Assembly: GCA_027475525.1 (NCBI GenBank)
Contig: JAMWFC010000077.1
Coordinates: forward strand, 1,488,001-1,552,000
Source of the DNA: Macrolepiota albuminosa
Lineage: Eukaryota > Basidiomycota > Agaricomycetes > Agaricales > Agaricaceae
DNA length: 64,000 nucleotides
Direction of reading: 5' to 3'
Shown: in pieces, positions 33,986-61,881 of the stretch
How the letters are laid out: each line of letters opens with the position of its first letter
How positions within the stretch are numbered: position 1 is the first letter of the stretch
Notes under the pieces: generated by a model
Databases searched by the model: none
Seen by the model: the letters and a program-made list of their open reading frames with translations, nothing else
What the model was told of the DNA's origin: nothing
Translations under genes and position numbers: made by a program

Positions 33986-33987
33986 TA

Positions 33988-38488: not shown

Positions 38489-38619
38489 TTTTTTTGAATC
38501 CGCCAGCTAGGATCTATTGCCTAGCATCCGACGTCAGTCGTTGAGTTCGTTGACAGAACTCTATCAGCTTCTCGAGCTTCTTGCACAGCCACACCGTGCA
38601 AATTTCAAACAGGGGATCA

Positions 38620-41990: not shown

Positions 41991-42005
41991 CTTGGCCGGC
42001 GCAGA

Positions 42006-43750
42006 GTGCCGGCCATGGAGGATGTGGAGGAGGAAGTGCAGGCTATGCCTGGACTGAGAGCAGACCACAACGTGGTAATGATGAGCGAGGAGGAGTATCA
42101 AGCCTCCAAGAGGAGCAACGAGCGAATAATCGCTCCTGAGATTCGAGGCGCAAGGCCTCCGGACAAACGCCATCGAAAGGCGAGACGACGGGAGGACTCA
42201 GTGGATGTATGTCCACCTACGTCCTCACGAGTCAAGTTGGAAGACTTGAGAGACAGCATCCGAGAGGCGGAAGCCTCAGGAGAGGGGGACACACGGTCCC
42301 TATGGAAGCGACCAGCCCCCCTGCTGGAGTATGACTGGGCATACGACCCCCGAATGCCGCAAGAGTGGAACGAGCTGGTGGCAGCCACGTGTGCACAAAA
42401 TGCGCACCAGAGACGGATGACCGTCAACCCAGCGTATCGCCAGCCAGCCTCGGACAAGGTGTCCGTAGCGTACTCACTTGTACGTGAGGGGAAAAGCCTC
42501 ATGGCTTATAAGGCAGCGGCAGCGGGTGCTCCACTGAGACTACATATACCCGATGACAGTGTCAATCGGGTGCTCGCAATGCGTGAGCAGTATGCACCGC
42601 CACCTCGGCCACCCTCAGAGACGGTGGAAGTACTTCCCCCGGTGCGTATGAAGGGGAAGCAGAAGGCGACAAGCCTTTGTGAGGAAGATATTCCTCGGTT
42701 GCGTCAGCAATGGCAAGAAGAATTTGCCGACATGGTCAATGGGACCAAGGAGGAGCTCCCGCCATGGCGGGAGGTGAACCATGAGATTAATCTCATAGAC
42801 GAGAACAAGCAGTATAAGTACCACTTGCCGCGCTGTCCGCGCGCCCTCCAGGAGCAACTATGCGATAAGACTAATCGCTATTTGAATGCCCAATGGTGGT
42901 CCCCATGCACCACCGCTCAAGCTGCACCGCTATTGTGCATCCCGAAGAAGGATGGAACCCTTCGAACCAATGGTGGTCCCCATGCACCACCGCTCAAGCT
43001 GCACCGCTATTGTGCATCCCGAAGAAGGATGGAACCCTTCAACAGCCTTGATGCGCGTCAGCGCAATGACAATACCATAAAGGATGTAACTCCTTTACCA
43101 GATCAAGAGGTGATCCGGGAAGACGTGGCTCGGGCGAAGTATCGCTCGAAGATTGACCTTACTGACGCCCTTTACCAGATCAAGAGGTGATCCGGGAAGA
43201 CGTGGCTCGGGCGAAGTATCGCTCGAAGATTGACCTTACTGACGCTACGAGCAGGTGCGCATTCGCACCGAGGACGTTCCAAAGACCGTATTTGCGTCGA
43301 TCATGGGTACATTCATGAGCAATATAATGCAGATCGGAGACTGCAATGCTCCAGCAACTTTCCAGAGGCTAATGACCTCTATCTTCCGAGACGTAATAGG
43401 ACGGTTCATGCATGTCTACTTAGATGACATATTCATCTACTCGGATACTATGGAGGAGCATGAGCAGCACCTCAGAGTCGTATTCAAACGACTGCGCAAG
43501 TACAAGTTGTACTTGAAGTGGAAAAAATGTGAGCTCTACGCTCAGAGTATAGACTGCCTAGGGCATGTCATAGACGAGCGGGGTATCCACCCTGATCAGG
43601 ACAAGCTCGATCGTATTCGGGAGTGGCGCACGCCCCAGGGCATGTCATAGACGAGCGGGGTATCCACCCTGATCAGGACAAGCTCGATCGTATTCGGGAG
43701 TGGCGCACGCCCCAAACTACAATGACATCCAACGATTCGTTGGCCTTGTC
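42006..43750 (+). pseudogene. pol: element A reverse transcriptase (frame broken by 77-bp duplications)
   Basis: Same frame as the protease until the duplication at 42890. Motifs are WSPCTTAQAAPLLCIPKKDGT (about 42897), a ligand segment DARQRNDNTIKD, SKIDLTDA (43150-43170), the product-binding block TFMSNIMQIGDCNAPATFQRLM where the family has F-G-L-x-N-A-P, and the catalytic YLDD at 43417-43428. The breaks at 42890, 43092 and 43560 coincide exactly with 77-bp tandem duplications, so the real gene probably has one open frame here. Copies DNA from the element RNA in the particle. Confidence 0.88.
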
Positions 43751-44340
43751 AACTACATATCGAGCTTCTTGCCCGATGTCACAGCCTATACTGGGCCACT
43801 TATGGCCATGACGCAGAACGGATCACCGTTCAATTGGAGGCCGTTGCACCAGCAGTGCTTCGAGATGGTCAAACGGATCTGTACGAAGACTCCGGTGATT
43901 CGACCAATCGACCCTAGACGGGACGAGCCAATATGGCTCATTTGCGACGCGTCCAAGACAGGCGTCGGAGCCATGTACGGCCAGGGAAGCAGCTGGCAGA
44001 CGTGCCGCCCAGCAGGGTTCATGTCGAAGAAGTTTACGACGGCCCAGCAAAACTATGCAGTGCACGAGCTGGAGACTCTTGCCATACTCGAGGCCCTCCT
44101 CAAGTGGGAGGATAAGCTGATGGGATACCCCATCCACATCATAACGGACCACAAGGCCCTTGAGTTCTTTAAAACTCAGGTGAACTTGTCGCCGCGCCAG
44201 CGACGGTGGATAGACTACATGTCGAGATATCAGTTCGACATCACCTATGTTAAAGGTGAACTCAACAAAGTGGCAGACTGCTTGTCGCGCTACTTTGAGA
44301 GTGATGTAGTCGGGGAGGCTCACGAGCCTCATGAGTATGT
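43751..44340 (+). CDS. pol: element A RNase H domain of pol
   Basis: Part of a 356-codon open frame (43700-44770). The Ty3 RNase H pattern is visible: a first acidic residue in LICDASKTGVGAM (about 43938), the glutamate in YAVHELETLAILEALLKW (about 44060), the aspartate in IITDHKALEFF (about 44140), then RQRRWIDYMSRYQFDITYVKG and ADCLSRYFE. It removes the RNA strand of the RNA-DNA hybrid. No stops are seen in this segment. Confidence 0.88.
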
Positions 44341-46383
44341 GCAGGCAGACTGCCGCATAGACCCTGATGGAGAGGATTTACCTCTCCACCGATACCAGGA
44401 GCTCAGGGAGCATGTCCTGGAAGTACGCGCTATGCGTGATGATGAACGGAGGCAAAGCACTCGCCTCAGAGAGCAGCGTGAAGAACGGGATGTAGCCGCC
44501 CAGTTGCTCAAGGAGCATGAAGCCGTGGACCCAGCGTCCACTAGGGAGCACGAGCACCACGATGTACCCGTTACGCTTGCGGAGATGCTCGAAGGCGAAT
44601 TGCCTTCATCCCAGCCTCCTAGCCTGGTCAATGACGACTTCTGGCAGGAGGTGGTGCAGGACTATGGCGATGATCCTCTCTTCGCCCCCAGCCTCCTAGC
44701 CTGGTCAATGACGACTTCTGGCAGGAGGTGGTGCAGGACTATGGCGATGATCCTCTCTTCGCCAAGATAATCGCCAATCCTGACGACCATCCTCGGTTCA
44801 GGCATGAGCCTGGTGGACTCATCACGACAGAGAACCGTCAAGGGGTGGCGGTGGTATGCCTGACCATCCTCGGTTCAGGCATGAGCCTGGTGGACTCATC
44901 ACGACAGAGAACCGTCAAGGGGTGGCGGTGGTATGCCTCCCCCGTAGCGTACCTTGTTACGCGGGTCTTGGACCAGGCCCATGCCCTGGTGGGGCACTTT
45001 GGTGCCGCCCGGACGTTGGGCTACATCCGGAGATGGTATTGGTGGCCACGTATGGCCCAAGAAGTGACTAAGTTTTGCGCGTCATGCGCAGCGTGTCAGA
45101 GGGCAAAGTTGCCCCCTGGATCCCCTCCATGGCCCAAGAAGTGACTAAGTTTTGCGCGTCATGCGCAGCGTGTCAGAGGGCAAAGTTGCCCCCTGGATCC
45201 CCTCCGGGAAGCTACACCAGCTACCTGTGCCGGTGAAACCCTGGGACTCAATCGGAATGGACTTCGTAGGTCCCTTTCCCGAGTCCAGAGGGTTCGATTA
45301 CCTCTGGGTAGTCATATGCCGCATGACGAGCATGGTGCACCTCATACCGGTGCGAACTACGCTGACGGCTAAGGAGCTGTCGTGGATCTACCTGAGGGAG
45401 ATCGTTAGGCTGCATGGGCTGCCTAGCACCATTGTGAGCGATCGTGACTCGAAGTTCACGTCTCAATGGTGGAGAGAACTCCACAAACTGCTAGGAGCGC
45501 GACTCCTCATGTCGACGTCCTTCCATCCTCAAACGGATGGGCAGACAGAGCGGGCTAACCGCAGTATAGGTCAGATTTTGAGGGCAGTTGTTCGCCCTGA
45601 CCAACGGGACTGGGTGGACTGGTGTCCACTCACTGAGTTCGCGATTAACGCGAGTATCTGGCAGTTGTTCGCCCTGACCAACGGGACTGGGTGGACTGGT
45701 GTCCACTCACTGAGTTCGCGATTAACGCAGTATCTGGATACCACAGGGTATGCGCCCTTTGAACTCAACGGAGGGTACTTGCCCTCCATGCTGCACGAAG
45801 TTCGTGCTGATACGGTGGCTCACCGTGGAGTCCCTTTGAACTCAACGGAGGGTACTTGCCCTCCATGCTGCACGAAGTTCGTGCTGATACGGTGGCTCAC
45901 CGTGGAGTGTCGAGTTCGCCAGGCAGGCCCTGGAGAACATCGCGGCAGCGCATGACGCCATCATAGAGGCGCGAGTCTTCCAGGCGAAAAACGCCAATCA
46001 CCGTAGGCGAGCGGACCCGCCAATAGCAGTAGGAGCGTTGGTCTACCTATCAACGCGTAATCTGAAACTCCCAAAGGGACGGGCGAGTAAACTCTGCCCG
46101 AAATGGGTAGGCCCATACCGCGTCCTAGACGCAGAGCCAAGTACCTCCAACTACGTGTTGGAGCTGCCTCTGGCATTACAGGAACGACGCATCGTTCCTA
46201 AGTTTCATGTGTCGCTGTTGCGACCTTACAGCGCGTCTGACGATGCGCTGTTCCCTAACAGGGCAACCCCGGGCCCCTATGATTTTGGGGCTCGAGACGA
46301 TGACGAATGGTTTCTGACGATGCGCTGTTCCCTAACAGGGCAACCCCGGGCCCCTATGATTTTGGGGCTCGAGACGATGACGA
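44341..46383 (+). pseudogene. pol: element A integrase (frame broken by 77-bp duplications)
   Basis: After a charged linker, the HHCC zinc domain (HALVGHFGAARTLGY and CASCAACQRAK) lies at about 44975-45105. The catalytic core has the first D in GMDFVGPFP (about 45255), the second in VSDRDSKFTS (about 45435) and E in QTDGQTERANR (about 45530), the DDE triad with about 35-residue spacing. The C-terminal GPYRVL segment is near 46108. Duplications at 44610, 44785, 45052, 45583, 45755 and 46236 cause the frame changes. Integrates the cDNA. Confidence 0.88.
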
Positions 46384-46575
46384 ATGGTTGTCGAGTGCAT
46401 AATTGGGCACCGGTGGACTGAGCGTAACACGCTCGAGTTTGAAGTACGATGGTCCCTGGGGGACACAACATGGGAGCCACACTCCCATTGCTCCAAGCTA
46501 GCGGCACTTGACCGTTATTTGGAGTTGAAGGGCGTTAAGCGCCCACATCAATTAAGTAAGCGTGCCGGCGCTTAA
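46384..46575 (+). CDS. pol: element A chromodomain, C-terminus of pol
   Basis: Reads VECIIGHRWTERNTLEFEVRW, then GDTTWEPHSHC and LDRYLELKG, the layout of a chromodomain fused to integrase in chromoviruses, which tethers integration to marked chromatin. Aromatic cage positions are partly recognisable (W/F near the first strand, W in TWEP). Stop TAA at 46573-46575 ends pol. Confidence 0.8.
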   Translation: MVVECIIGHRWTERNTLEFEVRWSLGDTTWEPHSHCSKLAALDRYLELKGVKRPHQLSKRAGA

Positions 46576-46754
46576 TTTGATCGGCAGTGCCGATCGCGGC
46601 TTGGCTGAGTTGGTCAGCAGCTGTGGCTGAAACACGTCTTAAAAGGCGAAATTTCTTTTTCGCTTTTTTCCCCAACCATGGACAGCATGCCCGTGGACTT
46701 GAGTGAGCAGCAGCAGCAGAAGGCGAAATTTCTTTTTCGCTTTTTTCCCCAACC

Positions 46755-49585
46755 ATGGACAGCATGCCCGTGGACTTGAGTGAGCAGCAGCAGCAGTTTG
46801 AGAGTACGCCGTCGGTCTTACCGTCGGCTGAAGGGGGGGGCAGATGGCTCCCCCGCTGACCCAAAATGCGCCCCAGTGGGGACAATCGCAACCAGCTGTG
46901 GGCTTCCCACAGCAGCAGCAACCACCAGCGGCGGGCTACCTGCCGCAGCAGCCGGTGATCAGTGGCTATCCGCCACTTCAAACCATGCAGGGCAACTTCA
47001 TGCCCCAGAACGCACCTGTGGGCGGCTATCAGCCCCAACAACCAGCACCGGGCGCTTATGCGCCACATCACACCAAGGGCCAATTCCAGCAACAGGCCTA
47101 CGGGGGGCTAGTCAGCCCCCAAGCAGCGTCGGCATGGAGGCAGCTTGCCCCCGTACCGGCAACAGGGCAACTGGGGACACATCCTTTTCCCCAGTTTACT
47201 GCCCTGGCGCACTACCCTGGGATGGGTGGTGTGCCCGTAATGATGCCGTACCCCCCGGCTTGGATGGGGGCTTGGGGCGCAATGCCCCAGTACAGCGACT
47301 CGCATGAGTCGCAAGCCAAGGGAGGCCGGTCGATTTCTCTGTCGACCACAGCACCAATTGACAATCTAGAGGGACGCAAAGCATCCCTCGTGCAGGCCAC
47401 CACAGCCAGTGAGAGTACAGAAACTCTCAATACAGAACGGAGCATCAGTTCATCGGCTGATGCGCCGACGGAGAGCTTGGCCAAGCTCTCCTTGCTACAG
47501 CGGCTGGAAATGCACGGAGCATCAGTTCATCGGCTGATGCGCCGACGGAGAGCTTGGCCAAGCTCTCCTTGCTATAGCGGCTGGAAATGCCGCACCCATC
47601 CGAGCCCAGCTCGGAAGAAGAGTCGCGTCCTCGACGCGACAAAGGAAAAGCACGGGCTGTCGAGCCCACTCACAGCCAGGACTTAGTCCTGGCTACCCTT
47701 CTCCAACGTCTGGGAGATAACGGGTACGATGTACCCGCAGAGTCGTCATTCCTCCGCGATGCGGAGGCAGTCGTCCTCATCTGCCGGATGATGGACGACA
47801 TGGATCATATGCGTGCTCAGCGCAAAACTGATCTCCTTGCCATTTCGGCCGCTCGTAAGCGGCAGATTACACCCCCGAGTCGGGACACCGACTCCAGCAA
47901 AAGGGCGCGTCGGCAAGGAGTGGAGGACGCGCCCTCCTGCTCGATTAAGTTGAGCGTTGCTGCCCCCGGCTGGGAGGCCGGTCTAGGACGGGACATCCTT
48001 CCCTATGAAGATGTTCCTGCTCCAGCCGCCCCCCGGCTTATCCAGCGCCTTGCCAGCGGTGCGTCTGAGGTCGCGTCTTCGCGACCAGTATCCGTGGTAT
48101 CCACCACGTACTCTGGGAAGCAGAGTTCCAGGGGCGTGAGCACATGCCCCATTGAGGCCAAGGCCTCACAACCCCGAAAGGATTGTCGGGGTAAGCAACC
48201 GGAAGGGCGTGCCTACGTCAACGTGCACGATGCCCCGAAAGGGGCCCCAGGGGCTAACATCCCCTTTTTACCCGCTATACTGGTAGAGGGCCTGCCAGCC
48301 CGACTCCCGTGGTGTGTGTGGGCAATGGACCCACGATCTGAGAAGTTGGAGCCAGAGAGGCTGCCTTCCCCTCCCTCCGACGACGATTGGTATGAGGAGC
48401 CTGAAGAGGCTCGTATGGAATCCCGAATTCAAGCGGGTGGCGCTCAACTGCCACCCTACGGCCCGAGACAGAGCTATGTCTCATTTACTTGACAAGGTTG
48501 AGTATAGGACTATCGCGGTACCCTTCGCGAGTCCAGAGGAGCGGGAGAACGTCCCGCGAATGATTGTGCCGTCGCGGCTCTATCGCCGCAAAGAGGGAGG
48601 GAAAATCGCCTTCGTCGGCCTTAACCCCCCTGATCCAAAGCAACCATTTGCTTTGGACTACCTGGGCTCATACGCCCTCCTCTATGGACGCCCTGGGACG
48701 TCCAACGTGTGGACCGGTCTGGCCATGGACCGAGCCATGCGCATTCATTGGTGCAGCCTCTTTGGGTTTGCGCTTGTATGCGCCCTCAGCGCCAGCCGCC
48801 CCTCCAAGGCCACAGTATACAAGTACCTGGCCTACGTCTTCGCCAGGCCAGGCCTCTACAAAGAGGCCGTGGCTGAGTACGAGGCGGCCATGGGGCAAGC
48901 CTTCAAGCCTCTCCACGCCGACGACCCTACCTTCGAGGTTCGGGCTGTGGACATCCCGGAAGCGTCAGCTTCCGTATTCACCACTTTGGACGCGTTACGC
49001 GTCCTTCTTCACAATCAAATTCCGGTCAGCTGGGCTGACCACGTGTACACTTATGGGGTCACCTACTTGGCCCATCTATTCTTCAGCGACAGCCGGCTCT
49101 ACAACGAGGCAGCTGCTATCGACGACGAGAGGCTACAATGCCTCGACCACTACGGTACACCCCAGTCCATCCCGCAGTGGGATGGGTGGCGCGAGGCCAC
49201 CATTGGCGACCGCCAACGCCTGATGCTCCAGCAGCAGGACAGTCGTCGTGCATACGACGACGCGCTCGCCAAGGGGATGTACCTCTCTATCGGGCAAGAC
49301 ATTCATGCCCGCGAAATCTGGACGTGCCAGTACCCGTCCGACACCGGGGATCTGCCTGATCCCCAACCACCTGTCCCGGGGTCGACCATCGACCCCAATC
49401 TCACACTGTCCCCCCTCCGGGACTATGACGATTCCCTGCCAGTAGCAGGGCCTTCGGGTACTTCCTACGCGCCCGCACCCGAGGATGAACTCCTCGACTA
49501 CGACATGGACGACGCGACTGCCGATCCATTCCGGGAGCCTGGGGGCTCTCCCATTGCCCCCGTCCCTGACTTACCGACGGCATGA
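46755..49585 (+). pseudogene. element A extra ORF between pol and 3' LTR, unknown function
   Basis: A separate ORF starting at about 46755 (ATG; duplicated at 46678 by a 77-bp repeat). Part one (about 46844-47500) is Q/P/G/Y-rich and prion-like. Part two (47587-48450) is disordered and charged, with an RRDKGKARA basic patch. Part three (48480-49400) is an ordered, mostly helical domain (SHLLDKVEYRTIAVPF, IAFVGLNPP, LDYLGSYALLYGRPG, ARPGLYKEAVAEYEAAMG, SWADHVYTYGVTYL). The tail is acidic. The frame changes at an 8-G run (46833-46840), at the 77-bp duplication at 47437, and near 48440. No signal peptide or membrane segment is seen, so it is not an envelope gene. I do not recognise a family of known function. 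Confidence 0.7.
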
Positions 49586-49601
49586 CCGTTGTATTATCTC
49601 A

Positions 49602-49630
49602 AGACCGTAGCTCGGTCTGATTGGGGGGTG
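49602..49630 (+). promoter_or_regulatory. hairpin and polypurine tract before the element A 3' LTR
   Basis: AGACCG (49602-49607) pairs with CGGTCT (49613-49618), followed by a TTGGGGGGTG purine tract that ends exactly at the LTR start (49631), the expected plus-strand primer position. Confidence 0.7.
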
Positions 49631-49645
49631 TGTAGCGTAGTCCGC
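49631..49645 (+). repeat. 3' LTR of element A, first 15 bp
   Basis: TGTAGCGTAGTCCGC is identical to the first 15 bases of the 5' LTR. Element B follows directly and the last four bases, CCGC, are its target duplication. Confidence 0.9.
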
Positions 49646-50673
49646 TGATGACGCCCAAAGTTTGGTCAGTAACAAATGTAACAATTGTGTTACCGTACCA
49701 AGAGTGTGCGTTGGGCGCGCTATAAGTGATTTGAGGAGTCCCGGGCAGGTCCCAGAGAACGCGTCTGTGAAAAAGGGTAAAAGTCGGTAACGGGGTCGGC
49801 AAGTGTCAAGCGCTAAGGTAAAGCGCCTAAGGAAAATGCGGTAAGTGAACACGGCAAGGGTGAGCGGCAAGAGCACGATAAGCTTAGCGAAGTTCTAAGC
49901 GTCGATAATGCCTGCCGTAGTTGCAAGGCGCGAAGGGTGAGCGGCAAGAGCACGATAAGCTTAGCGAAGTTCTAAGCGTCGATAATGCCTGCCATAGTTG
50001 CAAGGCGCGAGTATGTCGAGTGTTGGCGAACGTCTGTAACTACCGACGAGTTCGACGTTGCCGACCGTAGCGTAAATGAGCTCTTGAGCGTAAGGGAGAC
50101 TGAAGTAAAGGGGAAACTGTGGTCTATTCGTCTGATGATCCTCTATGTACAAGTCGGTAAGTACTTTTATACTACAATGAGTTCGCCGTCGCCAGTGGCT
50201 AATGATGCCAGAGTGCGGTAAACTGGAAAATTTCAAAGGGGTAGCTCCAACGGTTTCAGATCTCTACCGTCCATTCAAGAGCCTTAGCGACGCCAGGCGA
50301 CAGATCGCGAAGCTAAACCATCACTCCATCACCCTTCTGTCTGTCAGAACACCTAAGCGACGTTGGGCGCCAAATCGAGACGGTAAGCGGTGTCAGACGC
50401 CAAGGTCAAACGCCAAGCTGTCCGTCAGTTTTTGATAGATCATCAAGCTTCTCGCTAAGCGCTGTCGTCAGTGACTGATGCCATCTGTCAGTTGTCATTC
50501 TTGCTGCCGTCGGCGCTATCATTGATTGGATCTGCTTCTTGCCGTGCGCGGCCGTCAGAAATGGCTTAAAATGGGTAGAACGCGTGCGCTAAGTTCGGAA
50601 CGAGTGCGGCAAGGTTTCCGGAGCCGGTGCCGAGCCTGCCGTTGATGCGCCTAACCTGTATAGGGTCCTATCA
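49646..50673 (-). repeat. left (3') LTR of element B
   Basis: TGATGACG...CCTATCA. Contains the 77-bp duplication at 49856-50009, absent from the other LTR. One base differs between the two duplicate copies (GCCGTAG against GCCATAG). Confidence 0.93.
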
Positions 50674-50758
50674 TCTCCCCCCAACTGAAAAATTGACTGT
50701 CCTCAGTCACCAAATAAGGCTACCGTTACCGCTTTTGTGACCAGTGGTCCGTGCGTTC

Positions 50759-50912
50759 TTGAGATTTTGTTTATAGTCCTGGCGCATAAGTTTGGACTTC
50801 ATCTCTCCCCCCCCAATTTACCTGGCGCTCATTTTTTGAGATTTTGTTTATAGTCCTGGCGCATAAGTTTGGACTTCATCTCTCCCCCCCCAATTTACCT
50901 GGCGCTCATTTT
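50759..50912. repeat. 77-bp tandem duplication upstream of the antisense gene
   Basis: Two copies of a block that includes GGCGCATAAGTTTGGACTTC and a run of eight C, directly before the antisense start codon. Probable assembly artefact of the same type as the others. Confidence 0.8.
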
Positions 50913-50923
50913 TTTTTAATAAA

Positions 50924-53333
50924 ATGTCTTTCCGCATTCCAACTCCGCCCCCTGTTCCCTCTCAGGCTGCCCAAGAGGCCGCGTACGCCTACATAGCGAA
51001 GGCTAACAATTTCATCCGTCATATTGAAGGCGTTGGCGCCGAGGCGCCTCAAAAATTGGTCGTTGGCGTGATGAAGCTTTTGGAGCGCTGGTACGAGGTA
51101 CGCGTCCTTGGCGTTGGTTGGGATCGTGAAATTGAGGTGCGGGAATGGTGCCGGGCGCGCTATGTCGACAATCGTGGCGCTGAGTGGTTAGCGCCTTTCT
51201 CCCGTTTCGTAAGTTGCTTTTGCTACCTGCCGTGTCGCTTAGCTGATTGTTCCCTAGGCGCCTCCTGCTGTCCCCACTATCGAGGACGAGTTGGAGGACA
51301 TTCTGTCCGGGGCGTTGCCGATGACGGTAAGCGCGCCTGCGGCAGAGTGAGTATCTCTAACCACTTTCTCATAACTTAGCTCTGGTCTGATTTATCTCCT
51401 CACAGTAAACAGGAGGTGTTGGCGCCCTTGGCGCGTATGCAGGTGGAAGAAGAGATCGCGGCAAGGCAAGAGGAGGTTTCCCAGGATGCCCGCGAGATTA
51501 TGAGGGGGATAGAGGAGCGAGAGAGGGTGGCAGCGTTGGCGGCAGAGATGGAGGACGTTGCCGCGGGGAAGGCGCCTGCCGTTGAGAGGCAGGCGGTAGC
51601 AGAGGGATCCGGCAAGGTAGGTCGCGCCGGCAGCACTTTGAGCCCAGTGCTGCCGGCTAGCAAGTCGGGCTCGCCAAGGAAGCCGGCAGGTGCTTCCAAA
51701 CGTAAGGTAAGTGCTGATTTCGCTTGCCGTTGCCGACAGTCGCTAACGACCTTCGCAGAGTCGCAAGGCGGCTCCTCAATACGCGGTAAGGGGTCTCTTC
51801 TTTTTGGACTGAAATTACTAAGTCTTTGTAGGCGCCAACACAAAGCTCCTTCGACGACAAGGAGCTGAAAGGCTTGCTTTTGCCGCGTCGGGAGGAAGCC
51901 GTCCTTGACGAAGGACAGGAGGCCGGGGTCGTCATGGAGGAAATGAAGGGAAAGAAGACTGTTTCCCTGGCGACCCGGCAGGCATTCAAGGAGGCGCGGG
52001 GAGCGGTAAGTGACTTTTCTGGTTACTTTAATTTCTTGCTGACTTCTAGCGCTAGTGCGACAAATGCTGGGCGGACAACGACCCAGAAGGCTGCTGGTTC
52101 CCGACTGGGGCCCAGCCGTGTTATCGTTGTGGCGCCCTCAAGCGCGCCTGTACTATCGATGGGGCCAAGAGTCGGGAGCGTGGCGGCGCGCCAGATGCTC
52201 TCGTCGAGAAAACGTTCTCGCGCGCTGTTTTGGTGAGGAGGGCAAGGGAGTTTGTGGAGGGTCAGAAGCAGAAGGTCGCTGCCGGTGGCATGGCAGCTAT
52301 TGGACGAGCCGCCTTGGCGTTGCCGACACGCCAAGGGGATGGGACGGAATCTGTCGGCAATCGAGGCGCCGGCGAGCGCCAAGGGACTTCGGTCCCAGAA
52401 AAACGACAAGCCCCCTCCCCAAGCAAGGGGAAGGGCAAAGCAAAGCGCCCCCGTGTTGTATCGTCGTCGCCTTCCCCCTCGCCAGCGCCAAAGGATACCG
52501 AGATGGAGGACCTCGAGAAGGCCTTGGCGGCGAGTCGCCTCCCGCCTCGTGACACAGAGGCTGGTCCAAGTGGCCTCTTGTCGCCTATCCATTTGGCGGC
52601 GAGGTCCCTTGGCGGGGAACAGGAGGAGGGAGAACGGGAAGCGGTTGGCGACGCGGCGCCTCGAAAGGAGCTGGAAGAAGCCCCTGCCGACATCGAGATG
52701 GGGGAGGAGAAGGCAGAGGGAGCGGCAACGGGAGGGGATGAGGACGCTGAAGGGGAGGAAGACGAAACCTTGGCGACGCAGCGCCAAGGCGACGAGGAGG
52801 TGGTAGTGGGAGAGGGTGAGGGGGCGGCAGGAGTCGCCAGGGAGGAGCCTGAGTGGCGCTGGCTACCTCCCTACAGTAGCGTGGCCCCTTGGGAGGTTTC
52901 AGACCCGGAGGACGTTGCCGGTCTGGAGCCTAGGCGCCCCGTAATCGCCAGGATCAATCCTGCTTGGACGCCTCAACCGCAGCCAACGGTCACAGGCGAC
53001 GCCTTCAACTGGCTGGGACAGGACCTCGTGTACCCGGTGGTGGCGCTTAACCCGTGGGAGATGTTGGAGAGGTTTTCGAGGAGGGCGGCAACGATGGAGG
53101 CGTCAATGAGTCGGGAGCGGGAACGAGTCCGCGGTCAATTGATGGCGCTGAGGTTGCGTTACTCCAATTTGGGTCGTAGCCTTAGCGTTCTCCGCGACTA
53201 CCAGGCAGATTGCCAAGCCGCCATCGACTGGCAGACCGCCAATAACATCTTGCCTGGCGACCTTCTCCCACTTCGCGATTCCTCCTTGCCCATTACTGAC
53301 GACTCCCTCTCGATGGACGATGTTAGCGAGTAA
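50924..53333 (+). CDS. antisense spliced gene in element B: C6 cysteine-cluster, coiled-coil protein
   Basis: Exons 50924-51208, 51258-51346, 51406-51706, 51759-51785, 51832-52005 and 52056-53333 join into a 717-aa frame without stops. The five introns are 46-59 nt, begin GTAAG or GTGAG, end in AG and have branch-like CTAAC/CTGAC sequences. One exon has only 27 nt. Domains are an N-terminal helical segment (residues 1-95), a charged coiled coil (about 130-230), and then a cysteine cluster directly at the start of the last exon (CDKC-x8-C-x8-CYRC-x6-C). A long disordered acidic/proline-rich region and a C-terminal coiled coil (ERERVRGQLMALRLRYSNLG) follow. The cluster resembles zinc-binding modules of Agaricomycete hypothetical proteins; nucleic-acid binding is inference. 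It lies opposite in orientation to gag-pol. Confidence 0.8.
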
Positions 53334-53586
53334 ACGGACCTTAGCGTAGATAGGCCGTTTGTACATATATTTTTGTTGGCGCCTCGATTTTATATATTTT
53401 GGTGTTTCCCTGCCGAGTGGAGGAATTGAGTCCAATAATCTGAGTTAGCGTAGCGGCTGAGAGCAAGAAAAGTATAGCAAAGAGAAAGCAAGCGGTAAGT
53501 ATTCTGAGGTAGGTATTAGCAAGAACAGTAATATGTGAGGGACTTAGACAAATTTTGAGGAAAAGGGAAACGCTCAGTAGATCATC

Positions 53587-54227
53587 ATAGCGAAAAACCC
53601 TTGGCGAGAGTTGCGCAAGGCGCTAAGCGTTGGCGACACGCTAGCGCTGCGACTTGACTATGTATAGCGAAAAACCCTTGGCGAGAGTTGCGCAAGGCGC
53701 TAAGCGTTGGCGACACGCTAGCGCTGCGACTTGACTATGTAAGAAATTGTCTGTTGAATATAGTATAGTAAGTACGGCAAGAAAGATAAGTAAAGTAAGT
53801 AATAGAAAAAGGAGCTTATCAATATATAGTCTTTTCTAATCTTTCTTCTTCTTCAACTAGAGTCGGTAAGTCATCATCGTCCAATAATTGTTTCTTCAAG
53901 TCCCTAAGCTTGGCGGTGTCGATATCTAGCGCTTCAAGCGGCAAGTCAATGTGTTCTCTGGCGAGGTATGGCAATAGGCGAAAAGCGGCAACGTGTCGAT
54001 ATCTAGCGCTTCAAGCGGCAAGTCAATGTGTTCTCTGGCGAGGTATGGCAATAGGCGAAAAGCGGCAACAGGTCGATGTAGTACTGAACCATCTAATTCA
54101 CAGAGCACGTAAGCGCCTCCACGGTTACGAGAGATAACTACCAAGGGTCCCGATGTAGTACTGAACCATCTAATTCACAGAGCACGTAAGCGCCTCCACG
54201 GTTACGAGAGATAACTACCAAGGGTCC
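53587..54227. repeat. three 77-bp tandem duplications near the pol 3' end of element B
   Basis: First copies at 53587, 53916 and 54074, each followed by an exact second copy. The latter two break the end of the integrase frame. Confidence 0.85.
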
Positions 54228-55437
54228 AGATAGCGCGGGCGCATTTTCTTATTGTAAGAGGTTTCGATTTTGGAGTTGCGCATAAGCACTAGCGCTCCTC
54301 TCGGGAAGTTGTAATCTTTGATGGTAGCGCTATGCTCGGTTTCGAATCGTAGGGCTGCTTGGCGACGGGCGCTAAAGACTACCTCGTGGAGTCGCTCTAA
54401 ATCTTCTTTCCTTCGCTGGAGATCAATAGCTCGTCTGGCGACAAGATCGGTAGTCGCTAAGATGCTGTTGGGTGCTGGCTGAAGATAGGTCGCTTCTATA
54501 ATGTCGGCAGGGAGTAACGGATGGGTGCCAGTAGCCACGTAATAGGGAGAGCAACCCATGCGCTTACGAATAGTAACTCTTTCCGACCAAAATACTGAAT
54601 ATGTCGCTTCACTCCAACGAGACTCGTCGCCATCGACTGCCTTGAAAAGCGCTTGCCGAACGTCAAAGTGTGGTCTTTCTACCAGGCCATTGGCGCGCTT
54701 GTTGTAGCCAGATACTCGAATGTGGTGAATGTTGTATTTCTTGGCGAGGTATGTTAGCGCTTTGATAATGGGCGCACCGTTATCCGTGACGATTTCCCTT
54801 AGCGCTCCCCAACGGCAAATGACGTCCTCAAATAGCCACTTGGCGACCGCGTCGGTATTTTCCCTCTGAAGCATTCGAAATTCCGGCCAGTGGATTAGCG
54901 AGCAACGACCTTGAATGATGTACTTGTAGCGACCAGACTTGGGCATGTGCATGGTATCGACGTAAATTTTGCTGAAGAGGGGAGCTGGCGTTGCAACGGT
55001 TGGCGGTATGAGCACTTGGCGTGTTTGTTGAATTTGACAGAGGTGGCAAGTCCTAATGTACCAGGCGATGTCGGCGCTAGCGTGTGGCCACCAGAAGCGT
55101 TCTAATAGAGAAGCTCGAGTAGCGTACAGACCTCTATGACCTAGCTCGTCATGCATGGCGCGTAGGACTCGTAAGCGACTTTCTGGCTTGATGATCAGCT
55201 TGTGAGCGCCATCTCGATTTCGTCGCCAAAGTCTGTTGTCGGTAAAGAAGAAATGGGTAGCGTAGCGGATAAAGGTCGCGTATTGTTCGTCGGTAAGGCC
55301 TGTGGGTCGCTTAAGGTCTTGTAGCCATTGTTCAACTATTAACAAGCGACTGTCTTCTGCCTTTGCCTTGGCGGATCGAGGGACGGCATCGTAGGTCAGG
55401 TTTCTGCTGTCTTCTCTTAGCGACTGGGGTTCCTGTA
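53819..55437 (-). pseudogene. pol: element B integrase (frame broken only by 77-bp duplications)
   Basis: Main open frame 55345-54215. The HHCC domain has DELGHRGLYATRASLLERF and IRTCHLCQIQQ. The catalytic D is in IYVDTMHM (about 54957), the second in IVTDNGAP (about 54785) and E in ANGLVERPHF (about 54675). After removing duplications at 54074 and 53916 the frame continues through GPLVVISRNRGGAYVLCE to a stop at 53819, with an acidic tail (EEEERLEK). No chromodomain is present, unlike element A. It is continuous in frame with the RT-RNase H part once the 55438 duplication is removed. Confidence 0.85.
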
Positions 55438-57335
55438 CGATTTTTACTGGTGGCGTGTCTTGACTGAGGATGCTTGCCGTGTAGAATGTGAGGGGTGCGC
55501 TAAAGGTCTCGGGGCGATTTTTACTGGTGGCGTGTCTTGACTGAGGATGCTTGCCGTGTAGAATGTGAGGGGTGCGCTAAAGGTCTCGGGGCGATAAGGG
55601 ACGATGGGATGTAGCAGGAAGCTGGTAGGCTGTTGCCGTCGTAGTAGGGGGATAGGCTGTTGTATGAGGTGTACAAACCCATGTAAGCGGTCGATCCAGT
55701 CCTCGAAATCGCTATCAGCCTGTGGATCCACTGCCGGGTCGCCAGGCTGCCGTGGTCGCCTAGAGAGTCCATCTGGGCCGTGGAAAGTGCTCTTGACGTG
55801 TACCAGCTCAAAGTGAAACATGAGGATAGCGACTACCCACCGGTTCATGCTAGCGGATGGCTGGATATCGGGATTCTGCAGCATGCCTTTAATGTACCTA
55901 GCGTCGACTTCAACAATAAGGTTCCGCACGCCAATCAAATACATCTTTAGCGACCGGAAGGCTTTGAAGAGTCCATAGAGCTCTAGCTTAGGCTGACTGT
56001 AGCGAGACTCTCTGTCGTTTAGCGTGATAGACCCAAAGCGGTTGTAGCGTCGCTGTTTTCGATTGTCGCTAAGGCATTGGCACAAGAAGTAGCCAACGGC
56101 AATGTACGAGGTGTCCACCGCCAAGATAACAGGGTCGGCAGAGGTATAATCGATGGGGACTAGGGGCTTGGCGTCCTGCAGAGCTTTTACTAAGTCGCGT
56201 TGGGCAGTGACCTGGTCTGGCCCAAATTCGAAGGGCTCGTTAGCGCGGGTGAGTCGGTTAAGTGCATGTGCGCGATGGGCAAAGTTCTTGACGAATATTC
56301 TAAGAACGCCAACAGTACCAAGAAAGGCGCGAACTTCAGATAAGTCGCGGCAAGGACCCCAGCGCTCTAAGAGTGCTAAGCGAGACTCGTCGGGAACACG
56401 ACCGTCGGGAGTGCAGATGTGACCAAGTATTTTGAACCTTAGCGCGCATAGGAGGAGTTTGTGACCGCTAAAGGTACCACCGCTATACTTCATACGTTGG
56501 AGAACTCGATTGAGCAGCTGGAAAAAGTCCCATAGCGCTAAGCGAATGTTGGAGTTGTCGGGATGGGTTGCCGGTAAGCCGTTTACGAGTCGCCAGTCTT
56601 TGGGGCCTTTGACGCCAACGTCGTCGATGAAGCTAAGGACGTTATGCGGTATCTCGGGTTGGAGGATGTAAGTGATGTCATCGTGGAATATAGGGACTGA
56701 GTTTGTCCAGCCCATCGGTAAGGTGACTAGGCACAAGGCGCCAAACGGAGTTTGAAACGTAGTGAGGTCACGGGAAGAAGGGTGGATTAAGCGTTCATCG
56801 TAGCCAACGTAGAGGTCAAGGGTGGCGCCACAAATGCGCCCGGCAAAGGACTCGGCAAAGTGATCAGGGAAAGGCGGTACGCCAGAGTGTCGTATGGTAA
56901 CTCTATTCAGCGGCTCAAGACTGTGAACTATGCGTAGATTGCCGTTCTTTTTGAGGACACAGAACCAACGGGAGCGGTAAGAACTGTTTGAGGGCTCGTA
57001 GACGCCAGCCTGTATCTTGGTCCTAATAATCTGGCAGACCTCGGCTTCGATCCCAGGCGGTAACGGTCGGTTGTGCTCAGTCCACGGCACGTGAGGAATA
57101 GTCGGGATTACAACAGGCGGGAAGAAATCTGTACGTAGGCTGCCGCGTTCGGAGTCCTCCCAAGCGAAGGCTTTGTCTTGCTTAGCGACAAGATCGGTAA
57201 GGACGTTTAACTCATCTTTGGTCAAAAATCCTGTGTCGTGCTCCTTGGCGAACTGCTGTTAGCGACAAGATCGGTAAGGACGTTTAACTCATCTTTGGTC
57301 AAAAATCCTGTGTCGTGCTCCTTGGCGAACTGCTG
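55438..57335. repeat. two 77-bp tandem duplications within element B pol
   Basis: First copies at 55438-55514 and 57182-57258, each followed by an exact second copy. Both create the apparent ORF ends on either side of the RT-RNase H frame. Confidence 0.85.
55444..57225 (-). CDS. pol: element B reverse transcriptase and RNase H
   Basis: 593 codons open on the minus strand. Reverse transcriptase blocks are WFCVLKKNGNLRIVHSLEPLN (about 56950), ATLDLYVGYDE, TPFGALCLVTLPMGWTNSVPIFHDD, and the catalytic LSFIDDVGVKG (56611-56640), an I-D-D form of Y-x-D-D. Then FLGTVGVLRIFV and, for RNase H, ILAVDTSYIAVGYFL (about 56115), YSQPKLELYGLFKAF, LIVEVDARYIKGM and HVKSTFHGPDGLSRRP. The end at 55444 and the start at 57225 are artefacts of 77-bp duplications at 55438 and 57182; upstream and downstream parts are in the same true frame. 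Confidence 0.88.
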   Translation of the reverse strand: MTKDELNVLTDLVAKQDKAFAWEDSERGSLRTDFFPPVVIPTIPHVPWTEHNRPLPPGIEAEVCQIIRTKIQAGVYEPSNSSYRSRWFCVLKKNGNLRIVHSLEPLNRVTIRHSGVPPFPDHFAESFAGRICGATLDLYVGYDERLIHPSSRDLTTFQTPFGALCLVTLPMGWTNSVPIFHDDITYILQPEIPHNVLSFIDDVGVKGPKDWRLVNGLPATHPDNSNIRLALWDFFQLLNRVLQRMKYSGGTFSGHKLLLCALRFKILGHICTPDGRVPDESRLALLERWGPCRDLSEVRAFLGTVGVLRIFVKNFAHRAHALNRLTRANEPFEFGPDQVTAQRDLVKALQDAKPLVPIDYTSADPVILAVDTSYIAVGYFLCQCLSDNRKQRRYNRFGSITLNDRESRYSQPKLELYGLFKAFRSLKMYLIGVRNLIVEVDARYIKGMLQNPDIQPSASMNRWVVAILMFHFELVHVKSTFHGPDGLSRRPRQPGDPAVDPQADSDFEDWIDRLHGFVHLIQQPIPLLRRQQPTSFLLHPIVPYRPETFSAPLTFYTASILSQDTPPVKIAPRPLAHPSHSTRQASSVKTRHQ

Positions 57336-57900
57336 TTGGCGTTCCTTGGTAAAACGTCCTGTGGGCTGAAAGGGTGGCGGATTCGGTGATAGGGCCGGCA
57401 TGTCGGCAAGAGGGTCGCCAATGATCTGGCGCTCGATTCTGAAAGTCTCGGGAGAGTGCGTAGCGATGGGTTTTGTTTTAAGCGCAACTGGCTTATATTT
57501 CTTTTTAACTTGAACCCCTTTCCTTTTGGGAGCGTTAGCCTGGTTATAAACAGAGGTGGAAAGGGGAACTGTAGCCTGGGGTGCGGCAAGTCCAAGAACG
57601 GCAGGAGACGAGGCTCCGGGAAGGGTAGTGAGATACGTATCGGTAGACGCTATATTTTGAAAAGATTCGGAAGCGGTAAGGTACAAGTAGGCAAGAGAGG
57701 AGTCGGTGATATCTGGGTTTTTCTGAGAAAGCTCAGCGTCGGTAACGGTCGAGGAAAGTAAAACTTCTTCGTCAAGATAAGCGGTAGATATAATATTTAC
57801 AAGACCAGTTGAATGGTCATATTCCAGCGTTAGCGCTACATCTCCGTGATCGTCGCCAATCACCTCCTCGATGGTCTGTGAAAACACCGGTGGGGAGGCT
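57222..57900 (-). CDS. pol: element B N-terminal part of pol
   Basis: A 221-codon frame beginning near 57887 (SQTIEEVIGDDHGDVAL) with a disordered linker, a basic KRKGVQVKKKYKP patch (about 57530) and FTKERQQQFAKEHDTGFLTKDELNVL leading into the reverse transcriptase across the 57182 duplication. It overlaps the end of the gag-protease frame in another frame. The shift could be made at a run of C in CTAAGCCCCCGG (about 57925-57937), by programmed frameshifting or by a one-base sequence error. Confidence 0.7.
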
Positions 57901-60172
57901 CGTTGGCGTGTTGGTCGGTAAACTCCGGGGGCTTAGCGCGGGCGCCTTTTCGTTGTCCCCTAGGGAACGTTGGCACCGTTCGTCGGATTCCGGAATTTGG
58001 GTCGCTAATTGTGAGGGTCGTTTCCTCGTCGGTAACTGTCTTGACGACTGATCGCGCCAAGACGTCGAAGGGTCTGCCAAGTAGTAGGTCGTAAGCTGGT
58101 GAACGTAAGATGTGTATCTGAAGATAAAAAGTGATGTCGCCAAGGGTGCACGGCACATTCTTGGCGAGGCCTAGAGATCTGTCCACCGTACCGTTAGCGC
58201 TCTGCATGTTTAGTATAACGGTAGGGTCGTAAATAAGGCCTAGATCGTTAGCGACTTCAGCTGCCATGGAAATGATCTGAGACCCGCTATCCACAATTGC
58301 CTCTACTTCGTGCTTGTTGTCTACGGTTAGCGCTACCGAGCGGATAGCGTGCGATTCTTGAGCGACGGTAAGGATTGCTGGGTCTTCTCCATGGTCTACC
58401 GACCTAAGGTAGGTCTCCACTGGGTCCACAGAGGTGGCGTTAGCGATGGGGTCGGTAAGAGGTTCATCGGTGTCGGGAGAGTCAATGGTAACAGAAAAAC
58501 CAGGTAGCGCGTCGTCGAGTTCATCAACTTCGGCAACGGCTGTCGCCAAGGGTCGTCGGGGAGTGACTGCCGTCTTGACCTGGTTGCGGACGTCGGGAGC
58601 AATACTACAAAGTTCTTCTACTGACAAGGTGACGTGGGTTTTCATGATGCGGTTAAAAACGTGGTTCGATTTTTTGATGTCGAAGATTGGCGCAGTAGGT
58701 CGGTAGCCACCCTCAGGACGTTTCTCGGGAGCGGCAAAGTTTCGTTGTGCGGGAGCGTGATAACGGTCGGGAATCCCTGAATAGGGATGGAGAGGCGGCA
58801 AAGGCGGTTCGGGAGCGGTAGCGGACGACGATGGTTCTGAGGCAGGAGCAGGGGCAGTGGCAGGAGGTGCGGCAGGAGCAGGTGTCGGTAACTTGCTAGC
58901 GGGAGGCATTGGCTTATATCCTTTAAGAGGCTGTTTCGGCTGCTTAACTTCAACCCCATCAAAGACCTGATTCTTAAGCGAATCCAACTCTTGTTGGAGC
59001 TTGGCGATACGCTCTTCCCGCGAGAAAGTAGGATGGTCGCCAACGCTGTCGAAGTGTAAGACCTCGTGAATCATCTGCTGTTGAGTCGCTTGTTCAGGGT
59101 CAGGGTTGGCGTTGCCGGATAGCGTGCCGGTAACGATCTGTCCTGGGTTGCGCCTATGCCACTCATCAACTCGCTCCTGGAAGGACTTCTTGTCTGGGTA
59201 GTTGGGGATGGTGGCGCCAGTGGTAAGAACTATCTTGCCGTCGATAGCCCTTCGAATTCTACCTTGGCGAACGTAATTCTCGAGGGTAGCGCAGCGTCCT
59301 CTAGTCATAGTATGGCCAATTTCCCCACAGAAGTGGCAAGGGCCAGGTGCGGGTACGTTAGCGGGTCGGTTAGCAGTCAGGTTGGTGGTAATCATAGTTT
59401 CGATACGTGTCATAGCGGAGGCGACAGCGGCGGTAATAGCAGCGTTGAGTTCTTCTTTCTTAACGAAGTCGGCAACAGGAGGCGGGATGGGAATGATACC
59501 GTTAGTTCGCTCAGGTGGTGGGCTCGTCCTAGCGCGTGGTATGCCAACGCCAGTGTCCGTTCCCTTGAGAACCCATTTACCGGCTTCAAAGACGTCGGCA
59601 ACGTTATAGGGCTCGTCAGGGTGATGGGCCTGGTGAACTATCTCTAGGCGACGAGCAATACGCGTCCAAAGCGAAGTCGGGATGCCTTGCTGGAACAGGC
59701 GACGCTCCTCGTTAATATAGAGCTTGCCGTTCTGCAGAAGCCACCTAGCGATTTTCTGGAACTCGCGGTAATACGTAGAGAATGCGCCAAGCGAAGATGT
59801 GCCGTTGTCGAAAGATTCCTGTACTAGTTTCTGTAACTCGTTTACCGTGTATCGGGTAGCCTCCTCGGCGCCAGGGTACAGCTGGATCACTGCTGTCTTC
59901 CAGTCCTCATACGAAGCGCCTTGGGCTGGAACTGGCGGTGCGGCAGGGACAAAGGCGGCAAACTCGGTCAAACCTGTCCACGTCTCTGCCGTGTCATACG
60001 ATACATATCTTGCCGCGTACTCCTTCATCTGCGTGTGGTCGGTAATGTTACAGTCCCTGAATAGATACTCCAACTCCTTGAAATACTGGGAGAGCTCCCG
60101 TGGCTTGGACTCGTCCCATTTCGGTGCCGAGAAGTGGTTGCGTGGCAGCATGCGCTGGACTTGTTGTTCCAT
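57860..60172 (-). CDS. gag: element B gag-protease polyprotein
   Basis: 770 codons open on the minus strand. The capsid-type region is residues 1-250 (NHFSAPKWDESKPRELSQYF, AFSTYYREFQKIARWL). A zinc-knuckle-like C-H-F-C-G-E-I-G-H-x6-C lies at about 59292-59338, with a longer H-to-C spacing than the classic knuckle. A proline/alanine-rich linker and then the aspartic protease follow, with D-S-G-S in EAIVDSGSQIISMAAEVANDLG (about 58300) and DLLLGRPFDVLARS near 58085. No stops. Pol follows in another frame. Typical Ty3/gypsy gene order and consistent with an element that was recently active. Confidence 0.88.
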   Translation of the reverse strand: MEQQVQRMLPRNHFSAPKWDESKPRELSQYFKELEYLFRDCNITDHTQMKEYAARYVSYDTAETWTGLTEFAAFVPAAPPVPAQGASYEDWKTAVIQLYPGAEEATRYTVNELQKLVQESFDNGTSSLGAFSTYYREFQKIARWLLQNGKLYINEERRLFQQGIPTSLWTRIARRLEIVHQAHHPDEPYNVADVFEAGKWVLKGTDTGVGIPRARTSPPPERTNGIIPIPPPVADFVKKEELNAAITAAVASAMTRIETMITTNLTANRPANVPAPGPCHFCGEIGHTMTRGRCATLENYVRQGRIRRAIDGKIVLTTGATIPNYPDKKSFQERVDEWHRRNPGQIVTGTLSGNANPDPEQATQQQMIHEVLHFDSVGDHPTFSREERIAKLQQELDSLKNQVFDGVEVKQPKQPLKGYKPMPPASKLPTPAPAAPPATAPAPASEPSSSATAPEPPLPPLHPYSGIPDRYHAPAQRNFAAPEKRPEGGYRPTAPIFDIKKSNHVFNRIMKTHVTLSVEELCSIAPDVRNQVKTAVTPRRPLATAVAEVDELDDALPGFSVTIDSPDTDEPLTDPIANATSVDPVETYLRSVDHGEDPAILTVAQESHAIRSVALTVDNKHEVEAIVDSGSQIISMAAEVANDLGLIYDPTVILNMQSANGTVDRSLGLAKNVPCTLGDITFYLQIHILRSPAYDLLLGRPFDVLARSVVKTVTDEETTLTISDPNSGIRRTVPTFPRGQRKGARAKPPEFTDQHANEPPHRCFHRPSRR

Positions 60173-60552
60173 GGTGACGGTGGTAACGAGTTCGGTTAGC
60201 GGTAGTGGGGAAGGAGTTCTGGAGATTGGCGACGGGGTAAGCGAAATGATTTGAGAAAGAGGCGTTAGCGGAGTAATGGGAGTGATTGATTGCGGTAAGG
60301 CAAAGGGCGACGCTAAGGGGTCGTCGGCGCTATAATCGAGGGAATGTGGGAAGAGATCAGGAAAAGCGTCTACAGTGGCGTTCTGTAGTTCCTGGGCTAG
60401 AGAGAGACCCGGTAAGGCACCAGGTGGTTGTGGGGTTGATGGGTGGGAAGGAGCTATGCCTTCTGCCGACTGGTCTAGCAGGCGGCGCCTACGTTGGAGA
60501 CGGGTTTCTGGCGGAATTCTGCCCTAGAGATCCCTCGCGGTGGGCTCCAATT
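60173..60552 (-). other. element B leader between right LTR and gag
   Basis: About 380 bp of 5' leader on the minus strand. It starts with the candidate primer binding site (TGGAGCCCACCGCGAG, complementary to a tRNA-type CCA end) directly inside the LTR. No further gene is recognised. Confidence 0.6.
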
Positions 60553-61503: not shown

Positions 61504-61583
61504 CCGACGAGTGCGGCAAGGTTTCTGGAGCCGGTGCCGAGCCTGCCGTTGATGCGCCTAACCTGTATAGGGTCCTATCACCG
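61430..61583. repeat. 77-bp tandem duplication across the element B/A junction
   Basis: The 77-mer containing the LTR end and CCG is present twice in a row, so the right border of element B appears twice (61503 and 61580). Confidence 0.85.
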
Positions 61584-61881
61584 CTATGTGGCGTTGTCCA
61601 CATAGCTTTACTTACCTTACAGTAGATACTATTATATTATATTTATTATAATATAATATTAATTTACATTATTATATAAATTAGTTTACCAGCTGCTTAC
61701 AAAGCAGCTTATTTTGTGTTGATACTACATAGTCAATAGACCGGACTGGTCTGATTCTGTGCAGTGTGAACCTAAGCTCTCACAATCTCTGTAACTTCGT
61801 TACACATAGTCAATAGACCGGACTGGTCTGATTCTGTGCAGTGTGAACCTAAGCTCTCACAATCTCTGTAACTTCGTTACA
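61581..61881 (+). repeat. 3' LTR of element A, remainder
   Basis: Resumes with CCGCTATGTGG and is identical to 38265-38488 apart from one 77-bp duplication (61727-61803 repeated at 61804-61880). It ends TTACA, followed by CTAAG, the target duplication of element A. Confidence 0.92.

Follow-up and report, generated by a model that had tools for sequence, protein, structure and literature searches.

The stretch of DNA considered here, 64,000 nt from a contig of the fungus Macrolepiota albuminosa (JAMWFC010000077.1, positions 1,488,001 to 1,552,000) and referred to below as the window, contains a Ty3/gypsy long terminal repeat (LTR) retrotransposon, element B, that carries a gene antisense to its gag-pol region. 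The order protease, reverse transcriptase (RT)/RNase H, integrase was confirmed with Pfam. The gag-pol region occupies several frames of the minus strand (54215-60523), with the protease at the end of the open reading frame (ORF) 57860-60523, RT/RNase H within 55444-57258 and the integrase zinc domain within 54215-55576, all on that strand. The 3' LTR (49646-50673) and the 5' LTR (60553-61503), likewise on the minus strand, have TG...CA ends, and their comparison gave 741 bp with 3 mismatches and 288 bp with none. The antisense gene (50924-53333, plus strand) lies between pol and the 3' LTR. A polypurine tract adjoining this LTR (50674-50687, minus strand) was read directly as CAGTTGGGGGGAGA on the element strand, and the plus-strand spacer from the LTR to the ATG (50674-50923) is the presumed antisense promoter and leader. 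A further spacer, 53334-54214, separates the gene from pol, and its divergence among copies tracks that of the gene up to about 53560. Element B interrupts another gypsy element, element A, near its 3' end, as the element A LTR sequence at 38265-38488 recurs at 61581-61804. Element A itself extends over 38200-49646 plus 61581-61804 and has zinc knuckle, RNase H and integrase matches in Pfam.

Starting with the ATG at 50924, the antisense gene gives 717 codons and a stop once five introns of 49, 59, 52, 46 and 50 nt, each GT..AG, are removed. Such an intron-containing accessory gene opposite gag-pol had been proposed in an earlier, sequence-only reading, and the features on which the proposal was built (the frame, the introns, the near-identity of the LTRs and a motif of six cysteines, C6) all hold. 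All exons and introns are on the plus strand. Exon 1 (51208 being its last base, from 50924), exon 2 (51258-51346) and exon 5 (51832-52005) measure 285, 89 and 174 nt, respectively, in all 26 copies that were modelled; exon 4 (51759-51785) has 27 or 30 nt and, together with exon 3 (51406-51706), encodes the most variable part of the protein. Introns 1 to 5 lie at 51209-51257, 51347-51405, 51707-51758, 51786-51831 and 52006-52055. Exon 6 (52056-53333) encodes a C6 zinc-cluster-like motif, a basic stretch, an acidic region and a C-terminal segment that appears helical by eye; the C6 module, C-x2-C-x8-C-x8-C-x2-C-x6-C, spans 52056-52151. Coding in another frame of exon 6 was considered and rejected: in every one of the 26 modelled copies the five other frames contain at least one stop each, with medians from 4 to 14.

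The gene is conserved among copies of the element. In the genome searched (100 Mb in 129 contigs), a DNA search with exon 6, in which the best 40 of 451 candidates were scored, yielded at least 44 matches with 82-100% identity, and 30 loci, including the window copy, were cut out. The gene was located between the LTR end and the integrase in 29 of these, the other locus, L003, being truncated. Twenty-three of the 26 modelled copies are open from ATG to stop, and the remaining three (L015, L020, L025) have one stop each. Four loci were left out before the ratio of nonsynonymous to synonymous divergence (dN/dS) was calculated: the truncated L003, then L008 and L023, in both of which exon 6 contains a 77-bp duplication, and finally L012, which has a frameshift in exon 1. 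L003 was also omitted from the analyses of sliding difference, word density by locus and majority columns, and L003 and L012 from those of mosaics, word retention and CpG transitions. Median dN/dS was 0.10 (range 0.066-0.158; 325 pairs, of which the 315 with dS above 0.02 were used), which rules out neutral decay, and changes fall mostly at third codon positions in every stretch tested. Lengths of individual exons differ by multiples of three only, whereas intron lengths vary freely. Splice donors and acceptors are kept in the modelled copies with the sole exception of the intron-2 donor of L025; in one group of copies the intron-3 acceptor is shifted and the coding frame preserved. In distant alleles, whose introns are barely alignable, the five splice-site positions are unchanged (the projection of intron 3 being off by 3 nt in L032 and L055). 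Sampling by integrase only (ranks 2 to 7 of 40 scored, from 713 candidates) found the antisense gene in 6 of 6 places, three of these copies (L050-L052) being nearly identical to one another. Judged from these copies, the antisense frame is confirmed as a real, maintained five-intron gene under strong purifying selection, and the proposal did not meet with a missing or neutrally decaying frame in other copies. The gene is predicted to be transcribed and spliced in vivo, and it is best explained as an accessory gene that forms an integral part of a Ty3/gypsy family in a Termitomyces-related fungus.

Exact 77-bp tandem duplications are a feature of the assembly. There are 20 in the window (for example at 53587-53742, 53916-54070 and 57182-57338), several of them in the gag-pol of element B and in element A, and none with other periods from 40 to 129; the 57 fetched loci contain 34, with none at seven other periods. 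In element B they occur once inside the 3' LTR, in the leader spacer (50756-50909), in gag-pol (55438-55591, 57182-57335) and as a duplicated LTR end following the 5' LTR (61507-61583). They are probably contig joints of a k=77 assembly, that is, an assembly artefact, and the 26 loci that were modelled contain 16, of which 2 touch the antisense gene. Assembly artefacts, and nothing more, speak for regarding the gene as a chance frame or as passive cargo, such as a host gene fragment in one copy. Its constant position in both the gene-based and the integrase-based samples, its dN/dS and its relatives in Termitomyces leave that explanation with a negligible probability.

These relatives were found in three protein-database searches, where all the matches listed (18 of 18, 61 of 61 and 23 of 23) came from Termitomyces; in the searches giving 18 and 61, only the 8000 best word-sharing candidates were scored. 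The Termitomyces relative P0002 gave 2370 first-look candidates in the present genome, 70 of which were scored, and the gene family may be very abundant here. The alignment of relatives has a conserved core around the six cysteines, with the majority sequence CDKCWADNDPEGCWYPTGAQPCYRCDALKRACT and ten invariant columns, and a conserved N-terminal part; the window protein continues after the core with a basic stretch and an acidic region. No part of the protein is better conserved among 33 copies of the element than the C6 module (median identity 1.0, lowest 0.87), and the six cysteines are present in 56 module matches, L012 and L020 each having one extra cysteine. Fungal transcription factors of the Zn2Cys6 (GAL4) type bind CGG words, and in their consensus the second cysteine spacing is 6. 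The antisense protein shares with them six cysteines and the C-x2-C ... C-x2-C-x6-C arrangement, but its second spacing is 8, and PF00172 (Zn2Cys6) was not matched at E values up to 1. The resemblance is thus one of cysteine spacing and does not come from a profile. A putative nucleic-acid-binding role fits both the C6 cluster and an element-wide DNA word.

This word, CG[CG][CT]AA, forms an array of 182 sites over 50674-61503, about 17 per kb on both strands (96 plus, 86 minus), where a second-order Markov model predicts about 31. Its four members are each in excess (CGCCAA 60 seen against 13.9 expected, CGCTAA 41 against 6.0, CGGCAA 46 against 5.7, CGGTAA 35 against 5.3). The top hexamer z-score reaches 15.2 in element B, where 95% of simulated maxima stay below 4.7, and is 4.2 in element A and 5.1 and 4.6 in two other stretches of the window. 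Bins of 2 kb contain 27-38 sites inside element B and 0-4 outside, except for the bin with the LTR start, and 11 of the 182 sites belong to second copies of 77-bp duplications. The sites are spaced irregularly, coding sequence included, and are not mainly in non-coding tandem repeats. When synonymous codons were shuffled with protein and codon usage kept, the antisense coding sequence had 33 sites against 8.1 (standard deviation 2.5), gag 45 against 9.9 and RT 24 against 8.9. A DNA word seems to have been selected and written into synonymous codons in gag, in pol and in the antisense gene itself. A simple promoter role of the LTR suggested by CGG counts was considered and discarded, CGG not being enriched in the LTR (17 seen, 15.7 expected) and only the longer word being so.

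Comparisons between copies found the word kept in 82.6% of cases; permuted words, some of which overlap CG[CG][CT]AA, average 59.7% (standard deviation 12.0), which places the word at rank 2 of 358 (120 of 378 pairs). In nine distant alleles the gene has 26-37 sites, near the 38 of the window copy, and 10-23 of them are at shared places; in L049 there are 37, 15 of them at the same places as in the window copy. Density is thus largely preserved as individual sites turn over. Exchanges of C and G at position three of the word looked striking in pairwise comparison (460 swaps, no C-to-T change), but only 3 of 65 majority columns were polymorphic there and the test was therefore not used. B-family loci have 11.5-17.6 sites per kb and L034, of a sister family, has 4.9; the specificity of the word was judged against the window and one other gypsy family. 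Together these observations point to recognition of the DNA itself by a sequence-specific protein. The array may instead have arisen independently of the antisense gene, through mutation bias, base composition or some factor of the host, an explanation that gains from the small comparison available, which covers one family lacking the gene and two that carry it, the words of the latter overlapping. Three observations make it decidedly improbable. Among the 16 CGNNAA words, strong enrichment is limited to the four CG[CG][CT]AA forms, the rest being near or below expectation and CGGGAA mildly raised (11 against 4.1); the poorly alignable introns 1, 3, 4 and 5 of different alleles, which are related and hence non-independent sequences, exceed shuffles for the word (intron 2 has none); and retention is higher than for nearly all permuted words.

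The distribution of sites also bears on a regulator that would act only on LTR transcription, as a repressor or activator balancing gag-pol against antisense expression, with the sites outside the LTR owed to another cause. Its precedents are HBZ and APH-2 of the human T-cell leukaemia viruses HTLV-1 and HTLV-2, described as spliced antisense genes at the 3' end that encode nuclear regulators (PMC3185765). The gene of element B resembles them in its antisense orientation and in its place towards the 3' end of the element, with splicing deduced from conserved splice sites; it adjoins the 3' LTR, contains introns, and encodes an acidic region as do many transcription factors. The LTR, with 22 sites per kb, is among the densest parts of the array. 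However, gag-pol (16.6 per kb), the 3' spacer (19.3), exon 3 (23.3) and exon 6 (14.1) are close to it, the excess survives synonymous shuffling, the density is beyond what an LTR promoter needs, and a single site (4.0 per kb) falls in the 5' spacer that is presumed to act as antisense promoter. HBZ, moreover, is a bZIP protein of a retrovirus, unlike the C6 protein of a fungal retrotransposon; Pfam found no bZIP domain in the latter, and no homology is claimed. Such a regulator is accordingly considered unlikely, and the element-wide target remains the preferred interpretation of the word.

A sister family was available for comparison in two loci, L061 (C101:179000-188800) and L062 (C65:1212500-1222300), whose pieces are 82-96% alike. 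Its RT and integrase pieces are 34-46% identical to those of element B, and its antisense gene, placed and oriented as in element B, is about 42% identical in the central part, with a C6 module unlike every B-family module seen. GCGCTA is overrepresented in these two loci (40 sites in one and 47 in the other, with 8.3 and 9.1 expected), CGGCAA is not (3 and 4 against 4.9), and CGCCAA occurs 12 and 12 times against about 7. From this single sister family, the excess of CGGCAA and CGCCAA is mainly a B trait and that of GCGCTA and CGCTAA is found in both; element B would be set apart by CGGCAA, CGGTAA and CGCCAA, the words of the two families being related and overlapping in part. A further sister locus, L059, seemed to break the pattern (CGGCAA 8 against 1.9) and contains a B-type LTR at 2814-3681. 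In element A the word is not in excess (16 seen, about 17 expected), and tblastn found no match there to the window antisense protein or to 83 relatives.

The observed/expected ratio of CpG in the window is 0.19 at positions 1-31000, 1.09 in element B and 0.88 in element A, the depletion of 1-31000 pointing to methylation-driven decay of old repeats; at positions 1-6000 the ratio is 0.01-0.06. Transitions at CpG were compared with other C/G transitions, the word itself excluded, in close copies (difference below 2%). Close B copies gave a ratio of 1.08 (15 pairs of 15 copies), that is, no hypermutability, and close copies of element A gave 10.97 (9 pairs of 5 copies), with 3.29 in 6 wider pairs, a strong decay of CpG. 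These ratios fit an escape of element B from methylation.

Known systems offer partial models. VANC21 and VANC6 are anti-silencing proteins of the Arabidopsis VANDAL DNA transposons, which form a protein-plus-motif system (PMC5735166). Like VANDAL elements, element B combines a protein gene of its own with a short, dense word in the element family. The differences are that VANC motifs are mainly in non-coding tandem repeats and the B sites, irregular, fill coding sequence; that the words of the two families compared here overlap partly; that element B is an LTR retrotransposon and not a DNA transposon; and that binding of the motif has been demonstrated for VANC and is a prediction for element B. 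On this model, we infer that the antisense product is a DNA-binding protein that recognises the word in its own element and has a VANC-like anti-silencing function, a reading held at somewhat less than even confidence. Anti-silencing is thereby the leading but unproven role for the protein. The messenger RNA would start near the 3' LTR, on the strand opposite gag-pol, and then be spliced; its introns could survive the passage through genomic RNA because the gene is antisense. This shielding, deduced from the GT..AG polarity, predicts that introns should persist, as they do in the 26 modelled copies and the aligned distant alleles. The encoded protein, with its C6 zinc-cluster-like module, would recognise the element through some 170 copies of CG[CG][CT]AA in the LTR, coding and non-coding parts, coat it, and keep host silencing (CpG methylation, heterochromatin) off, in the manner of VANC. 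Copy-choice recombination of co-packaged genomes would shuffle old gene alleles over young backbones.

A protein that binds element nucleic acid could alternatively serve in packaging or nuclear import, as a coat or pre-integration-complex factor, the word then being used for self-recognition of the cDNA and not of chromatin. A strand-symmetric word suits double-stranded cDNA, and nuclear accessory roles have been proposed for plant antisense ORFs (PMC7264820). This alternative is improbable, as Pfam found no gag-like or nucleocapsid similarity in the antisense protein. The plant genes in question, the aORF-3R class of Ty3/gypsy elements (Grande gene23, RIRE2, Retand ORF4/TRP28), encode products thought in some cases to be nuclear or DNA-binding (PMC7264820; PMC11963269). 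The gene of element B is comparable in being conserved, antisense to gag-pol, between pol and the 3' LTR, and present in most copies. It differs in having five introns, the term 'intron' being absent from the main texts of PMC7264820 and PMC11963269, and in its element-wide word and mosaic allele series, which the parts of these papers at hand do not describe. PF04195, the TRP28 domain, was found neither in 19 relatives nor in the 717-aa window protein, in contrast to Retand ORF4/TRP28.

The sequence-only reading knew of antisense ORFs in some plant LTR elements but of no spliced example in fungi. Gypsy elements of fungi with an additional antisense gene have, however, been published before, namely brtn of the Boty-like (BcGypsy1) elements of Botrytis cinerea (mentioned or cited in PMC7264820, PMC8365987 and PMC4227169), and the likeness to element B is one of layout. 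Searches for antisense genes that are fungal, spliced or of zinc-cluster type, and for retrotransposon anti-silencing, judged by titles and abstract beginnings and covering few subscription journals, found no description of the combination seen here.

The antisense gene has a history of its own within the element. Segments were compared in 28 loci (378 pairs), L004, L019, L020, L022 and L028 of 33 being left out for a missing segment and L055 and L056 being kept although their projected span ends without a visible stop codon. The median fourfold-site difference was 0.352 in the antisense gene and 0.137 in the integrase, the former being larger in 366 of the 371 pairs whose gene difference exceeded 0.03. 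Counted over all sites, LTR end and 5' spacer together differed by 0.026, and the 5' spacer 50680-50755 also had a median pairwise difference of 0.026. In sliding comparison the median difference stayed at 3-6% over the LTR end and 5' spacer, climbed to 7-30% between about 50860 and 53560, and dropped to 3-8% towards the integrase. Synonymous divergence (dS) in 23 gene-sampled loci gave a milder contrast (integrase 0.25, gene 0.59); in 246 pairs with gene dS above 0.05, 155 were more than twofold above the integrase and 10 were reversed. L049, the copy nearest to the window by integrase, has a dS of 0.05 there and 1.34 in the gene. For this comparison of distant alleles L032 was left out beforehand, owing to its misplaced intron-3 boundary, and L036 and L037 failed projection. 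Gene distances have rank correlations of -0.12 with LTR and 0.17 with integrase distances, and since gene and backbone are nearly uncorrelated, a mere difference in rate is not supported.

Gene copies are also mosaic; L017, for example, matches L010 and L011 in exons 2-5 and L019 at the end of exon 6. Site incompatibility rises from 0.19 to 0.62 with growing distance, and for sites within 100 nt none of 1000 permutations was as low as observed. The gene is thus shown, subject to the assembly, to be older and more diverse than the backbone, with old mosaic alleles and a recombining history of its own, a pattern that copy-choice recombination between co-packaged genomes would give. The LTRs are nearly identical, from which the sequence-only reading took the gene to have been mobilised recently with its element, but the gene has not simply ridden with its present backbone. 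Old alleles on a young backbone could also persist through copy-number control or heteroimmunity, each allele repressing elements of its own type so that rare alleles are favoured. This mechanism would suit an allele diversity that is deep around the gene and its 3' flank but shallow in the LTR and 5' spacer. The C6 module, which is the likely contact module, and the word hardly differ among the B alleles that were sampled; there is no hint that targets are allele-specific, which makes heteroimmunity very improbable.

Several observations weigh against the proposal of a self-recognising, anti-silencing protein. As to the word, it was picked up post hoc; near words are raised in element B too (CGGCAG 26 against 4.8), as is GCGCTA (38 against 8.4); and in the sister family CGCTAA is about threefold and CGGTAA about twofold up. 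Because the words overlap between families, the co-divergence of word and protein is only partial, and the link between them is limited to two gene-bearing families and one gene-less one. As to the protein, its 717 residues have no Pfam match at E values up to 1, and thus no DNA-binding family; 19 relatives give only single weak Pfam matches (best E 0.026), and a PDB profile search found no matching chain. The projected frames of two distant copies are not open, L036 having stops and L037 being out of frame. The sister family, with its own antisense gene, has CpG decay (ratio 5.59 among close copies, 5 pairs, and 1.49 among wider ones, 4 pairs), and two of the three differences between the LTRs of the window copy are CpG transitions; the clean CpGs of element B may thus reflect its youth, ages being uncontrolled. 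Finally, the 77-bp joints make the pairings of alleles and backbones dependent on the assembly, and long reads are needed for them.

Elsewhere in the window, an inverted repeat occurs at 32382-33987, with arms of 224 nt, 95% complementary and 1158 nt apart, and two units 75% alike and 156 bp apart, with ATTGATTGATTGATT runs, at 62149-62458. Rfam gave no match in the window at gathering scores.

Put together, these data suggest, tentatively, a form of retrotransposon self-recognition in which a C6 protein marks its element by a word placed in LTRs, introns and synonymous codons and shields it, the word shifting between families and alleles being shuffled as cassettes. LTR retrotransposons of fungi would then have arrived independently at a system resembling VANC, a broader proposition that we hold possible and with somewhat less confidence than the anti-silencing function itself. 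The finding makes testable the role of antisense genes in LTR retrotransposons, as well as sequence-specific self-recognition and escape from silencing in retrotransposons such as occur in some DNA transposons. The word provides a direct biochemical assay, the allele series a set of natural variants, and the sister family a specificity to compare.

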